Source of the DNA: an uncultured Clostridia bacterium
Lineage (GTDB): Bacteria; Bacillota; Clostridia; Lachnospirales; CAG-274
Length of the DNA: 64,000 nucleotides
Direction of reading: 5' to 3'
Assembly (NCBI GenBank): GCA_947630475.1
Contig: CANRHR010000005.1
Location: forward strand, 1-64,000
Part shown: positions 4,720 to 44,282 of the stretch, in pieces
Layout of the letters: every line of letters starts with the position of its first letter
Numbering within the stretch: the first letter of the stretch is position 1
The notes under the pieces: model-generated
Told to the model about the DNA's origin: nothing
Databases searched by the model: none
What the model saw: only the letters and a program-made list of their open reading frames with translations
Made by a program: the position numbers and the translations under genes

Positions 4720-4759
4720 AATAATCACCTCCTAAATAAAGTCATACCTTACACTTAAT

Positions 4760-4786
4760 ATATCGGCATAAAAAAGGTTTTTTTTA
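4760..4786 (-). promoter_or_regulatory. Sigma-28 (SigD/FliA-type) promoter
   Basis: On the minus strand the sequence is TAAA, 15 bases, GCCGATAT, an exact match to the Bacillus SigD consensus. It lies about 40 bases before the FliD-like start. The 46-base neighbourhood is closely similar to the promoter inside the putative invertible segment at 36885-36929. Confidence 0.85.
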
Positions 4787-36806: not shown

Positions 36807-36834
36807 AAAGCCATAGATTTTTCGATGGCTTTAT
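36807..36834 (-). terminator. 9-bp hairpin left of the invertible segment
   Basis: TAAAGCCAT / ATGGCTTTA is a perfect stem with a 10-base loop. It lies just outside the left inverted repeat and could stop leftward transcripts leaving the segment (the recombinase gene or the sigma-28-like promoter at 36898). It has no clear T-run. The rest of the gap 36661-36849 is AT-rich with nothing else visible. Confidence 0.4.
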
Positions 36835-36849
36835 AATAAAAAATAAAAA

Positions 36850-36880
36850 AAATGTAACAATTTATAATAAATGTTACATT
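36850..36880 (-). repeat. Left 31-bp inverted repeat of the putative invertible segment
   Basis: The 31 bases are the exact reverse complement of 37587-37617. Each copy is itself an imperfect palindrome with 9-bp arms AATGTAACA and TGTTACATT around a 12-base centre; the centres are inverted relative to each other (ATTTATAATAAA here, TTTATTATAAAT at the right). Two core arms around an asymmetric centre is the usual form of a tyrosine-recombinase site. The inverted relation predicts inversion rather than excision. Confidence 0.88.
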
Positions 36881-36897
36881 TTTGCCTTACACTTATT

Positions 36898-36923
36898 ATA
36901 TCGTCATTATCGAAAAAAACTTA
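36898..36923 (-). promoter_or_regulatory. Sigma-28-like promoter inside the invertible segment, pointing outward to the left
   Basis: On the minus strand TAAG, 14 bases, GACGATAT: seven of eight bases of the -10 box, three of four of the -35 box and one base short in spacing against the SigD consensus. The surrounding 45 bases (36885-36929) closely match the 46 bases around the perfect sigma-28 promoter of the FliD-like gene, sharing CCTTACACTTA, TATATCG and TAACGCCT in the same places. In the present orientation it reads away from csrA-flagellin. After inversion it would read into csrA with a leader of about 100 bases. Confidence 0.65.
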
Positions 36924-36990
36924 ACGCCTATTTTAAAAAATTTTAAAAAATTTTTTTATTTTTTGCATACAAATAAAGCATAGCCAAACA

Positions 36991-37566
36991 CTACAAATTA
37001 AGCGACATAAAAACCTTATCCTTTTCATCTTGGTCTATGCCTAAATATCGTCTTGTTACGGCATACGACGAATGATTGAAAAGCTCCATAATAACGGCAG
37101 GCGCAACGCCCTTTTTAAAGGCGTTGTAGCCAAATGTTTTCCTCAAGGAATGACAGGCTATGTTTCCCTGTATCTTTAAAAGCTTTGCCGCCTGCTTTAA
37201 AATTCTGTACATCTGTATTCTGCTTATCGCTTTGTTTTTTCCTTTCTGGCTTTTAAACAAAACCCCATCTTTTTGTATTTTTCCGTAATAGGCTTTAAGC
37301 TTTTTTAGGCAGTCTATAACAGCCTTATTCATCTTTATTTTAATAATTTTTTTTGTTTTCTTTTCAACAATGTGAATGTAGGCTTTAAATTTTTTTGTAT
37401 CAAATTCATACACATCTTCCCATCTCAGCTCCAATATATCGCTGCATCTTAATCCCGTGTTTACGCTTATTACAATCAGCGCAAGGTCACGCATATTGCC
37501 TTTTTTCTCAAAATAAAGCTTAAGTCTGTTCAAATCTTTTTTACTCTTTATAGGGTCTGTTTTCAT
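36991..37566 (-). CDS. Small tyrosine recombinase, FimB/FimE-like size (putative DNA invertase)
   Basis: ATG 37566 is chosen because AAGGAGG lies nine bases before it. The 191-residue protein is almost only the catalytic domain of the phage-integrase family, as in the Fim-type invertases. All expected residues are present: Arg40 (TGLRCSDIL), a lysine in the VEKKTKK hairpin near 69-73, His139-x-x-Arg142 (HSLRKTF), His165 (NHSS) and the nucleophile Tyr174 (TRRYLGI). The gene is the only one between two perfect 31-bp inverted repeats, with its start 21 bases inside the right one. It most likely flips the segment that contains it. No other phage gene is nearby. Its promoter must lie in or beyond the right repeat. 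Confidence 0.9.
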   Translation of the reverse strand: MKTDPIKSKKDLNRLKLYFEKKGNMRDLALIVISVNTGLRCSDILELRWEDVYEFDTKKFKAYIHIVEKKTKKIIKIKMNKAVIDCLKKLKAYYGKIQKDGVLFKSQKGKNKAISRIQMYRILKQAAKLLKIQGNIACHSLRKTFGYNAFKKGVAPAVIMELFNHSSYAVTRRYLGIDQDEKDKVFMSLNL

Positions 37567-37586
37567 TATTAAGTTCCTCCTTGAAT

Positions 37587-37617
37587 AATGTAACATTTAT
37601 TATAAATTGTTACATTT
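37587..37617 (+). repeat. Right 31-bp inverted repeat of the putative invertible segment
   Basis: The sequence begins AATGTAACATTTATTATAA and ends TTGTTACATTT, and matches the reverse complement of 36850-36880 at all 31 positions. It lies between the recombinase start and csrA, 59 bases before the csrA ATG. Confidence 0.88.
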
Positions 37618-37676
37618 GTACGCTCCTACCATATTATCATCTTATATTTTAAACAATTTTTCAAGGAGGAATTTTT

Positions 37677-37934
37677 ATGCTTACGCTGACAGTCAAGGAA
37701 GGAGAATATATAAAGATAGGTGATGATATTTTTGTTAAGTATACAAGCAACTTAAGGTCCGACAGTATAAGGCTATCCATAGACGTGCCTAAAGAAGTAC
37801 CCGTAGTACGCTCTAAGGTGTATGAAAAAAATCTTGAACTAATGGCGGAAAACGATTCTGCTGCCGCCGAGGAGCTTAAAAGGGTAAGAAAAATGAAGGG
37901 CAAATACAAAAAGCCTAAGATTAAAAATATTTAA
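37677..37934 (+). CDS. csrA: CsrA family translational regulator
   Basis: The 85-residue protein begins MLTLTVKEGEYIKIGDDIFV and continues with SIRLSIDVPKEVPVVRSKVY, which matches CsrA: LILTRK-type first strand, IGDDI turn, and the PKEVxVxR RNA-binding stretch. The C-terminal 25-30 residues form a longer than usual basic tail (MKGKYKKPKIK). CsrA dimers bind GGA motifs in hairpin loops and block translation; in Bacillus the flagellin mRNA is the main target and FliW is the antagonist. The flagellin gene follows 95 bases later with matching leader sites. fliW is not in this window. AAGGAGGA precedes the ATG. Confidence 0.92.
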   Translation: MLTLTVKEGEYIKIGDDIFVKYTSNLRSDSIRLSIDVPKEVPVVRSKVYEKNLELMAENDSAAAEELKRVRKMKGKYKKPKIKNI

Positions 37935-37948
37935 TTAAGTTAATATCC

Positions 37949-37976
37949 TTGGCAAAAGCTAGGGTTATTATATAAA
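37949..37976 (+). promoter_or_regulatory. Possible sigma-A promoter for flagellin
   Basis: TTGGCA, 16 bases, TATAAA. Start of transcription near 37983 would put the leader hairpin at the very 5' end of the mRNA. If this promoter is real, flagellin can be transcribed independently of the switch upstream. No sigma-28 consensus is visible here. Confidence 0.5.
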
Positions 37977-37984
37977 AACAAAAA

Positions 37985-38023
37985 ACGCAAACGGATTTGC
38001 GTAAAATTTAATCAACGGAGGGA
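37985..38023 (+). promoter_or_regulatory. Predicted CsrA-binding leader of flagellin mRNA
   Basis: ACGCAAA-CGGA-TTTGCGT (37985-38002) is a perfect 7-bp stem whose loop holds GGA. The Shine-Dalgarno sequence ACGGAGGGA (38015-38023) repeats the same ACGGA. Two GGA sites, one in a hairpin loop and one on the ribosome binding site, are the known arrangement by which CsrA represses hag in Bacillus. Confidence 0.65.
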
Positions 38024-38029
38024 TTTATT

Positions 38030-38854
38030 ATGAGTAGTTCAACAGTAATTAACACAAACGCAAGGGCTTTAAATTCAAACAGAAACTTAAGGGCAGTAGG
38101 AAACAAGCAGGATAAGGCAAGCAAGAGATTATCAAGCGGCAAGAAAATCAATTCTGCGGCTGATGATGCAGCAGGCTTGGCTATCAGCGAAAAAATGAAG
38201 GCTCAAATCAGAGGTCTTGATATGGCTTCCAAAAATGCAAATGATGCTATATCATTTATCCAAACAACTGAAGGTTATGTTGCCGAGATTAACAATATGG
38301 TTACAAGAATCAGAGATCTTGCCGTTCAGTGTTCTACAGACAGTAACGAATCAGCAGACAGAACCAAAAGTCAGCAAGAGGTTGAGCAGCTTAGAACTGA
38401 AATTACAGATTTGGCAGGCAGAGCTCAGTTTAACAACATTAATCTTAATCAAAAGGATGTAGAGTTTGATTTCCATATCGGTTCAAACAAAGGTCAGAAA
38501 ATTTCATTAAAACTTCAGCAATTTGATGCCACAGAATTAGGTTTGAATGCTGCTTCAGTATCTGGCGATGGAAGTGAGGCTGATACTCTTATCAAAACCT
38601 GTGATGATGCTCTTGAAAAAGTAACAAGCTACAGAGCTATACTCGGCGCTGTTCAAAACAGGCTTGAATACACAAACAGCGCTCTTGAAACAGCAAGCGA
38701 GAACTTAAGCCAAGCAAACTCAAGAATTGAAGATGCCGATATGGCTCAAGAAATGACTAACATGACTTCAGCTAACGTTATTAATCAGGCTGCCGTTGCT
38801 ATGCTTGCTCAGGCAAATCAGGCTCCACAGACTGTGCTTCAGCTCTTGAGCTGA
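38030..38854 (+). CDS. hag: Flagellin
   Basis: The 274-residue protein has the conserved flagellin ends: INTNARALNSNRNLRAVGNK and SKRLSSGKKINSAADDAAGL at the N-terminus, and ALETASENLSQANSRIEDAD, MTSANVINQAAVAMLAQANQ and QTVLQLLS at the C-terminus. It is short, so only the D0/D1 core and a very small variable part (about 145-195) are present. The stretch VTRIRDLAVQ resembles the TLR5-recognised site of enterobacterial flagellins (inference). It lies directly behind csrA, starts behind ACGGAGGGA, and ends in a strong terminator. Confidence 0.97.
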   Translation: MSSSTVINTNARALNSNRNLRAVGNKQDKASKRLSSGKKINSAADDAAGLAISEKMKAQIRGLDMASKNANDAISFIQTTEGYVAEINNMVTRIRDLAVQCSTDSNESADRTKSQQEVEQLRTEITDLAGRAQFNNINLNQKDVEFDFHIGSNKGQKISLKLQQFDATELGLNAASVSGDGSEADTLIKTCDDALEKVTSYRAILGAVQNRLEYTNSALETASENLSQANSRIEDADMAQEMTNMTSANVINQAAVAMLAQANQAPQTVLQLLS

Positions 38855-42344: not shown

Positions 42345-44282
42345 TTAATCTGAAACTCTGATCTTAAATGTCATTTCATCTTCGTCACCGTCATCATTTT
42401 CGGCAATTACGGTATAGGTATAAGAACCTTCATCTTCTTCGGCATCAAAGCTGAATTCCCAAATAAGCTCATCGTCATCGATATCGTCGTAGTTCTTTTT
42501 GCTTCTTCCTCTTTTGTCGCCGTCTTCGTTTTCGATCCATATCTTAGATACAGCATCGTTTGTATAAACTGTAACATTTACTTCATCTTCAACATCAACG
42601 GTTTTATCCTCAATTTCTATATCGTTAATTTCAGGCTTGTCGGCAATATCAAGTTTAACTGTAAATTTCTTGGTTGCCACATTATCCTTTTCATCATAAG
42701 CATAAACTGTAAAGCTGTTTTTGCTTTCTTTTTCAACCTCAACCTCGAAGTTCCATGTAATTGTGTTTCCAGAATCTGAGCCTGACTCAACTCTTGCAAT
42801 TTCGTCTGAGTTGCTGTCTTTAACGATAATGTATTCTGCAACAGAGGTTGTTTTTGCGCTCATCTTAACGGTTTCGTTAAGAGATACGTCGTCGCTCTTT
42901 TGGGTAACGCTTAAAACCGCAAGCTCTGAGCTTGAATATTTTTCGCCTGTAAGGTTGAAGCTTTCGGAGGTTGAATCTTCATCATCATTATATGCTCTTA
43001 CTTCGTATTTTGTTCTTCCTGAGCTTTCAACCTCAAATTCTATTCTCCATGTTTTTTCGTTGTCTTTTACGCTTGATGAAGTTGGGAAGTTTTTCTTTAC
43101 AACTCTGTCATCATCGTCATCATAAATTTCAACCTTTGTTATATCGTATGTGGTAGTTATTGTAACAGTGGCATCTTCTCCTACGGCAATATCAGAATCA
43201 TAATCTATATCTTTAATCTCCAGCTCGTCATCGTCATTTGATTTTGAAGTAGAGCCTGAGCCGCCGACATCAATGGTTATAGTTTCGTAATTAGCCTCGT
43301 AGCCGTCTGAATTTCCTACATAAACATAGAGATCACATTCGCCTTTTTCGGTCATTTTGATTTTTGTTTGGAAAACCCTGTCATCGCCGGAAAGGTTATA
43401 TGTGGTAAGCTCGGTGCCGGTAGATTTAAAGTTGTTTAAAATCTTTATTCTGTCTGCTGCCGTATTTGTAAATATTGAAAGCTCCACATAATCATTTTTT
43501 GCTACACTTCTGTCATCTGCATCTATTTTTATAATTTTCGGCTGATTATCGAGAGTAACCGTAATCATACAATTTTTTGAAGAAGCGTCATCTTCGTTGT
43601 ATTCAACGGCGTTTCCCGCACAGGCTTTAAGCGTTTTTATTTCGCTTACCGATACGCTCGGCACATATTGCAAAGAGAAAGTCCTTGTTGAATCGGCGTT
43701 TTGGGTATAAACAACGCTTTCGCTTACAATGCTGTTTGTTGCGCTGTCCACAAGCTTAACTTTTTCCGCTGAAGCCGAAGCGATAACGGTTACAGATACT
43801 GTTTCGCCGTTTTTAACGACATTTTGAGATGACACAGCGCTTAAAACTGAAGTTGCCTGAGTTGTTATAAGCACGCTTCTTGAGGCGTTATCCCAATCAA
43901 CGTTAGCCCCAAGCGCCTGAGCAAGCATTCTTACAGGCATCATTGTTCTGCTTTGAAGAACAGCAGAGGGGGTATCAAATGTAGTTGCTTCACCGTTTAC
44001 CGTTATAACGTTTGAACGAAGAGTATGTACAACCGTTCTCGAACCTTTTTTAAGCGTCATAGTTTCGGTTGCGGAGTTCCAATCCACAACGGCGCCAAGG
44101 GTTTCGGCTGTTTTTCTGAACGGCACCATAGCTCTGTTATTCATAATTTGAGGGGTTGCGTCATCAAAGCTTAAAAGCTGATTGTTAATGTAAACAAAAC
44201 AAGGCTCGGCGGCGAATACATTAATAGTCTGCATTAAAAGGCAGAAAATAAGCGCCGCCGCAAGCGATAAAATTTTTTTCAT
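42345..44282 (-). CDS. Secreted protein with copper-amine-oxidase-like (stalk) and Ig-like repeat domains
   Basis: The 645-residue protein has a signal peptide (about 1-25, cleaved near FAA). Two copper-amine-oxidase N-terminal repeats follow at about 30-140 (NNRAMVPFRKTAETLGAVVDW and SRTMMPVRMLAQALGANVDW). The rest is a series of about five Ig-like beta domains, each about 90-100 residues and rich in Asp, Glu, Ser and Thr (for example DDDDDRVVKKNF). There is no LPXTG, SLH or catalytic motif, so it is probably a wall-bound structural or adhesive protein. The acidic runs may bind calcium (inference). It is a single-gene unit. Confidence 0.75.
   Translation of the reverse strand: MKKILSLAAALIFCLLMQTINVFAAEPCFVYINNQLLSFDDATPQIMNNRAMVPFRKTAETLGAVVDWNSATETMTLKKGSRTVVHTLRSNVITVNGEATTFDTPSAVLQSRTMMPVRMLAQALGANVDWDNASRSVLITTQATSVLSAVSSQNVVKNGETVSVTVIASASAEKVKLVDSATNSIVSESVVYTQNADSTRTFSLQYVPSVSVSEIKTLKACAGNAVEYNEDDASSKNCMITVTLDNQPKIIKIDADDRSVAKNDYVELSIFTNTAADRIKILNNFKSTGTELTTYNLSGDDRVFQTKIKMTEKGECDLYVYVGNSDGYEANYETITIDVGGSGSTSKSNDDDELEIKDIDYDSDIAVGEDATVTITTTYDITKVEIYDDDDDRVVKKNFPTSSSVKDNEKTWRIEFEVESSGRTKYEVRAYNDDEDSTSESFNLTGEKYSSSELAVLSVTQKSDDVSLNETVKMSAKTTSVAEYIIVKDSNSDEIARVESGSDSGNTITWNFEVEVEKESKNSFTVYAYDEKDNVATKKFTVKLDIADKPEINDIEIEDKTVDVEDEVNVTVYTNDAVSKIWIENEDGDKRGRSKKNYDDIDDDELIWEFSFDAEEDEGSYTYTVIAENDDGDEDEMTFKIRVSD

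Follow-up and report, generated by a model that had tools for sequence, protein, structure and literature searches.

The recombinases of the fim system adjoin their switch and control fimbriae. A different arrangement is found in the hin/fljBA locus of Salmonella, where an invertible segment carrying both a recombinase gene and a flagellin promoter lies before an operon that encodes a flagellin and the regulator FljA (PMC9368917). Hin is indeed a named example of a recombinase occasionally encoded within the invertible segment (PMC5903667). In C. difficile, the tyrosine recombinase RecV inverts Cdi4, a short segment between inverted repeats, and thereby phase-varies flagella (PMC5386303). RecV acts in trans on this 154-bp segment, a recombinase-free stretch between 21-bp repeats that forms part of the early flgB operon's leader and takes effect after transcription initiation (PMC5386303).

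We analyzed a window of 64,000 nucleotides (the whole stretch of DNA presented here, on contig C5 of an uncultured Clostridia genome). A sequence-only reading had proposed that it holds a recombinase-carrying invertible flagellar switch, in which perfect 31-bp inverted repeats with an asymmetric center enclose a 191-residue tyrosine recombinase with complete catalytic residues as the only gene, with csrA and a flagellin gene downstream. All of these elements were confirmed, and the sequence supports the switch as a whole; its flipping in living cells is inferred. The distal site (36850..36880, plus strand) and the proximal site (37587..37617, minus strand) are identical at 31 of 31 positions in inverted orientation and bound a segment of 768 bp (36850-37617) with the recombinase as its sole gene. 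Each repeat reads AATGTAACA-N12-TGTTACATT around the asymmetric center, a pattern confined to switches in this genome. A scan of the 64-kb window at spacings of 100-3000 bp returned 17 bp as the next-longest exact inverted repeat, and in 60 dinucleotide-preserving shuffles the longest one averaged 14.9 bp and reached 19 bp at most. We thus rejected a chance origin of the 31-bp repeat.

Like hin-fljBA, this locus has a recombinase and a flagellin promoter inside the segment, and a flagellin and a flagellin regulator outside of it. However, Hin is a serine recombinase that uses hix sites and a Fis-bound enhancer, whereas the window switch has a tyrosine recombinase, sites with an overlap of about 6 bp, a sigma-28 promoter, and csrA in first position, and its genome carries several such switches in parallel. 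Functionally it parallels hin, without belonging to the Hin family. With Cdi4/RecV it would share inversion by a tyrosine recombinase for flagella in Clostridia, but here the segment itself carries the recombinase and would turn the promoter of the late flagellin gene.

The recombinase gene is located at 36991..37566 on the minus strand (stop included; 36994-37566 without stop). Its 191-residue product matched PF00589 (Phage_integrase) with an E value of 1.8e-26 and 93.4 bits against a cut-off of 27.1, and residues R40, K70, H139, R142, H165, and Y174 were invariant among its relatives. It therefore meets the criteria for a tyrosine site-specific recombinase, a Pfam score above cut-off together with the R-K-H-R-H-Y residues. 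Only PF00589 was found in the protein, and the criterion for the Hin family of serine DNA invertases was not met. An AlphaFold2 model (9-sequence alignment; pLDDT 82.6) resembled the catalytic domains of XerA, XerH, and Cre, and also lambda Int, all of which are much longer proteins, and the match to Xer models began past their first ~110 residues. Judged from a dN/dS of about 0.1 between its copies, the recombinase is under purifying selection. It resembles FimB and FimE in being a tyrosine invertase of about 200 residues that turns a promoter, and the nearest NCBIfam invertase models were indeed PRK09871 and PRK09870. Nevertheless, its scores of 45 and 35 bits were far below their cut-offs of 222 and 221, so membership of the FimB/FimE subfamily was not supported. 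Homologous recombinases from the window organism's own taxonomic family (G002-G036), which lie beside invertible elements of about 200 bp, share 38-54% identity with it and use sites of the TGYAACA-N12/13-TGTTRCA type. Unlike in the window, these recombinases are located just outside the short repeat-bounded element, where the neighboring genes include some of secreted or surface type, and are not associated with csrA-fliC.

Just inside the distal repeat, at 36898..36924 on the minus strand, we found the motif TTAA-N15-GACGATAT, followed by AATAAGTGTAAGG. The flagellar sigma-28 consensus quoted for Butyrivibrio has TAAA at -35 and MCGATAa at -10 (PMC3720852). The motif fits this consensus and, judged by its sequence, is a flagellar sigma-28 promoter, its SigD dependence being inferred. 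The same extended motif precedes fliD and a non-switched flagellin gene. Across the 2.18 Mb of the genome, its core, CGATATANNANNTGTAAG, was matched exactly only 9 times, against 0 for the reverse-read control. The matches lie in the four switches described below, at both ends of contig C23, before fliD (window 4748-4765, reading into a fliD-like gene), before the non-switched flagellin gene on C10, and on C3, where the exact extended core at 43815-43832 is near mreB/mreC-like genes. The segment satisfies the definition of an inverton, namely, inverted repeats that enclose a promoter pointing out of the segment. Since this promoter faces away from csrA-fliC, the switch is OFF as assembled. Neither the internal promoter nor the OFF state had been part of the sequence-only reading, nor had the sister copies, of which one is inverted, or the occurrence in other genomes.

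Directly outside the distal repeat, a hairpin at 36807..36832 (minus strand) may end transcripts made in the OFF state, and its like occupies the equivalent place in two sister copies (copies 2 and 3 below). This role is inferred from sequence only, and a terminator scan did not call the hairpin as a terminator. We also looked for sigma-70 promoters that could serve the recombinase or OFF-state csrA, and only weak matches were found; those located between the repeat and csrA could provide basal csrA-fliC expression in the OFF state.

The first gene after the switch is a csrA paralogue (37677..37934, plus strand; PF02599, 3.9e-16), followed by the flagellin gene fliC (38030..38854, plus strand; PF00669, 5.7e-35, and PF00700, 1.9e-27). 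The flagellin leaders harbor a hairpin with a GGA loop upstream of the ribosome-binding site, at 37985..38002 (plus strand) in the window, and the stem varies compensatorily between copies (ACGCAAA/TTTGCGT versus CCACAAA/TTTGTGG). CsrA binding to GGA motifs represses translation, and CsrA and FliW govern flagellin in Bacillus, Campylobacter, and C. difficile (PMC6529632, PMC4894983, PMC8523840). By analogy, the hairpin is a candidate CsrA site, and CsrA control of flagellin is inferred here.

The genome contains four complete switches, each with its own recombinase, repeats, promoter, csrA, and flagellin gene. The four recombinase homologues are located at C5:36,994 (the window), C6:136,612 (100% protein identity), C13:2,796 (81%), and C5:113,811 (66%), hereafter copies 1 to 4, and each is flanked by inverted repeats and adjoins a csrA-flagellin pair. 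Two further, partial switches lie at contig ends: the start of C23 carries the 3' end of a recombinase, a promoter, and a repeat, and the end of C23 carries the repeat and promoter of another switch. In addition, contig C25 ends within a flagellin leader very like that of copy 4. Overall, we counted seven flagellins plus FlgL, and five csrA genes, four of which are located in switches. Across the genome, TGTAACA-N11-13-TGTTACA was present exactly ten times; the four switches account for eight of these sites and the ends of C23 for the other two. The core TATAAT is common to copies 1 and 2, the two C23 sites likewise have a common core, and the remaining cores differ; cross-talk is thus expected to be limited except within those two pairs.

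The same two pairs have further features. Copies 1 and 2 (window 36850-38029 and C6 136.2-137.3 kb) are 99.7% identical in the recombinase, 98% on the promoter side, and 100% in the fliC leader, but identity drops to 93% in csrA and to 60% in the distal flank. This pattern points to a recent event, either gene conversion or exchange of the cassette, that ended at the distal repeat. The two same-core sites on C23 (242-267 and 18980-19005) are inverted, 18.7 kb apart, and flank ribosomal protein genes; if these sites recombined with each other, a large part of the chromosome could be inverted.

Evidence for inversion came from copy 4 (C5:113.6-114.4 kb), which lies in the opposite orientation, with its promoter facing csrA-fliC (ON). 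When copy 4 was aligned with the switch at the start of C23, flank and repeat were co-linear (208 bp, 93%), whereas the interior was inverted (270 bp, 96.7%). Similarly, the csrA side of copy 4 was co-linear with that of the window copy and the interior inverted, and the alignment breakpoints coincided with the repeats. The core TAATGA is present in both repeats of copy 4 and in no other copy; this is evidence against a chimeric assembly. At the level of sequence comparison, these alignments demonstrate a past inversion of the paralogous segment. The presence of both orientations is thus established between paralogous loci of one genome but not within a single locus.

We then compared the partners of 21 repeat pairs of the recombinase family, 8 of flagellin type and 13 from relatives of different architecture. 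Partners differed at 59 positions in total, all of them outside the central 6-7 bp, even though these loci have 15 different central cores. In a permutation test of the mismatch-free core, 0 of 100,000 permutations were as good, for the whole site as well as for the spacer only. Many of the pairs came initially from exact-seed searches and are thus biased toward matching centers, and four left-hand sites contain assumed end letters and failed the string check. The pattern is the one that would be expected of the overlap (crossover) region of a tyrosine recombinase.

The same cassette was present in the Lachnospiraceae/Eubacterium MAGs L010 (goat rumen), L011, L016, and L017 and in other genomes of the order, with a recombinase between repeats, an outward sigma-28 promoter close to the inner edge of one repeat, and csrA, fliC, or both on the far side of a repeat. 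Relatives without conserved repeats would have refuted the original proposal; the repeats proved to be conserved. Together, 23 cassettes from other genomes and the four of our genome gave 27 csrA/fliC cassettes. The recombinase faces csrA in five of the 27, and in four of these the promoter still points away, so recombinase and promoter have no constant relative direction. This observation bears on the idea that the recombinase itself is the main target of the inversion, which might, for instance, bring it under different outside promoters, with only a secondary effect on flagellin. The 5' end of the recombinase gene does face different flanking DNA in each orientation, and the promoter scan identified no promoter of its own within the segment. 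Yet the flagellar promoter lies at the segment end, adjoining csrA-fliC, in all 27 cassettes despite the variable recombinase direction, and we give this explanation almost no credence.

In the assemblies, 26 of the 27 cassettes scored for promoter side are OFF, and copy 4 of our genome is the only ON cassette with both repeats. In L148 (G264), a flagellin gene and a recombinase are accompanied by a promoter that faces fliC, and a second repeat was not found at the locus, which is possibly a locked-ON derivative. In the absence of read data, the predominance of OFF may mean that flipping is rare or strongly biased; it suggests either a biased switch or flagellin expression by a minority of cells, and it is the main unexplained feature of the system. 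It would also be compatible with a locked or nearly locked silent flagellin that once flipped and is now OFF, with the repeats serving mainly as recombinase binding sites or being kept by gene conversion. The two mismatches between the repeats of copy 2 and the apparent loss of a repeat in L148 fit such a scenario as well. On the other hand, the purifying selection on the recombinase, the crossover core that is identical within each pair yet variable between loci, and the inversion of one of the four complete copies speak against it, and we consider a locked flagellin unlikely, albeit not negligible.

Flagellin-linked recombinases did not form a single clade: the 16 on the tree required 8 label changes, at least 5 of them forced by well-supported branches. 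A single origin of the flagellin type was thus not supported, and transfer or repeated recruitment is likely. Such scattering, the several copies per genome with one nearly identical pair, and the resemblance of the recombinase to phage integrases could all point to a small mobile element, a recombinase with terminal repeats that moves as a cassette and landed before csrA-fliC by chance. However, the complete copies are all placed alike relative to csrA-fliC, and the spacer pairs fit inversion. Because the homology of these copies extends past the repeats toward csrA, and none of the ten exact sites in the genome lies outside a switch, we rejected this explanation, which we regard as highly improbable. 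A phage origin of the window copy was also rejected, as a viral collection yielded two loci (46% and 24% identity); neither csrA nor flagellin was found near the closer one.

Some loci of the relatives show additional features. Genes for large Ser/Asp-rich low-complexity proteins lie directly 3' of two switch-type flagellin genes (L009 3043-4803 and L139 9100-10200), and in L158 (G069) a flagellin locus with a related recombinase has a tandem pair of csrA-like genes next to the latter.

We conclude that the segment at 36850-37617 is very probably an invertible promoter that carries its own recombinase and switches csrA-fliC, although flipping is inferred since no reads were available. In this model, the short tyrosine recombinase would bind the two inverted TGTAACA-N12-TGTTACA sites, its action on its own sites being inferred. 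Strand exchange across the central ~6 bp would then invert the 768-bp segment, including the recombinase gene and the outward sigma-28 promoter. The observed orientation would direct the promoter away (OFF), and the inverted one would allow it to drive csrA-fliC (ON), presumably in a SigD-dependent manner. CsrA would in turn tune flagellin translation via the GGA-loop leader hairpin, a role that is likewise inferred. With at least four units in the genome, individual flagellins could be switched separately, and the locus-specific cores would restrict cross-talk between most units.

More tentatively, the units may form a combinatorial flagellin antigen system, a possibility that we would not yet favor. 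Up to six autonomous recombinase-promoter-csrA-flagellin units would flip separately, mostly OFF and one ON at a time, with specific cores keeping most loci apart; a hin-like device for antigenic variation would then have been built independently from a tyrosine recombinase in many gut Lachnospiraceae and relatives. The switch is an apparent convergent counterpart of the Salmonella hin switch, with an unrelated recombinase class and with CsrA paired with flagellin where Salmonella has FljA. In the part of the open-access literature that was searched, we found no published description of this arrangement, of a flagellin inverton enclosing a tyrosine recombinase, or of Lachnospiraceae flagellin invertons.

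Among the antigens of the gut microbiota, the flagellins of Lachnospiraceae and related bacteria are prominent, and both the reason for the many flagellin genes in such genomes and the timing of their individual expression are poorly understood. A recombinase-carrying switch that can be recognized by sequence alone at single flagellin loci makes phase variation in uncultured gut bacteria testable with existing long-read metagenomes.
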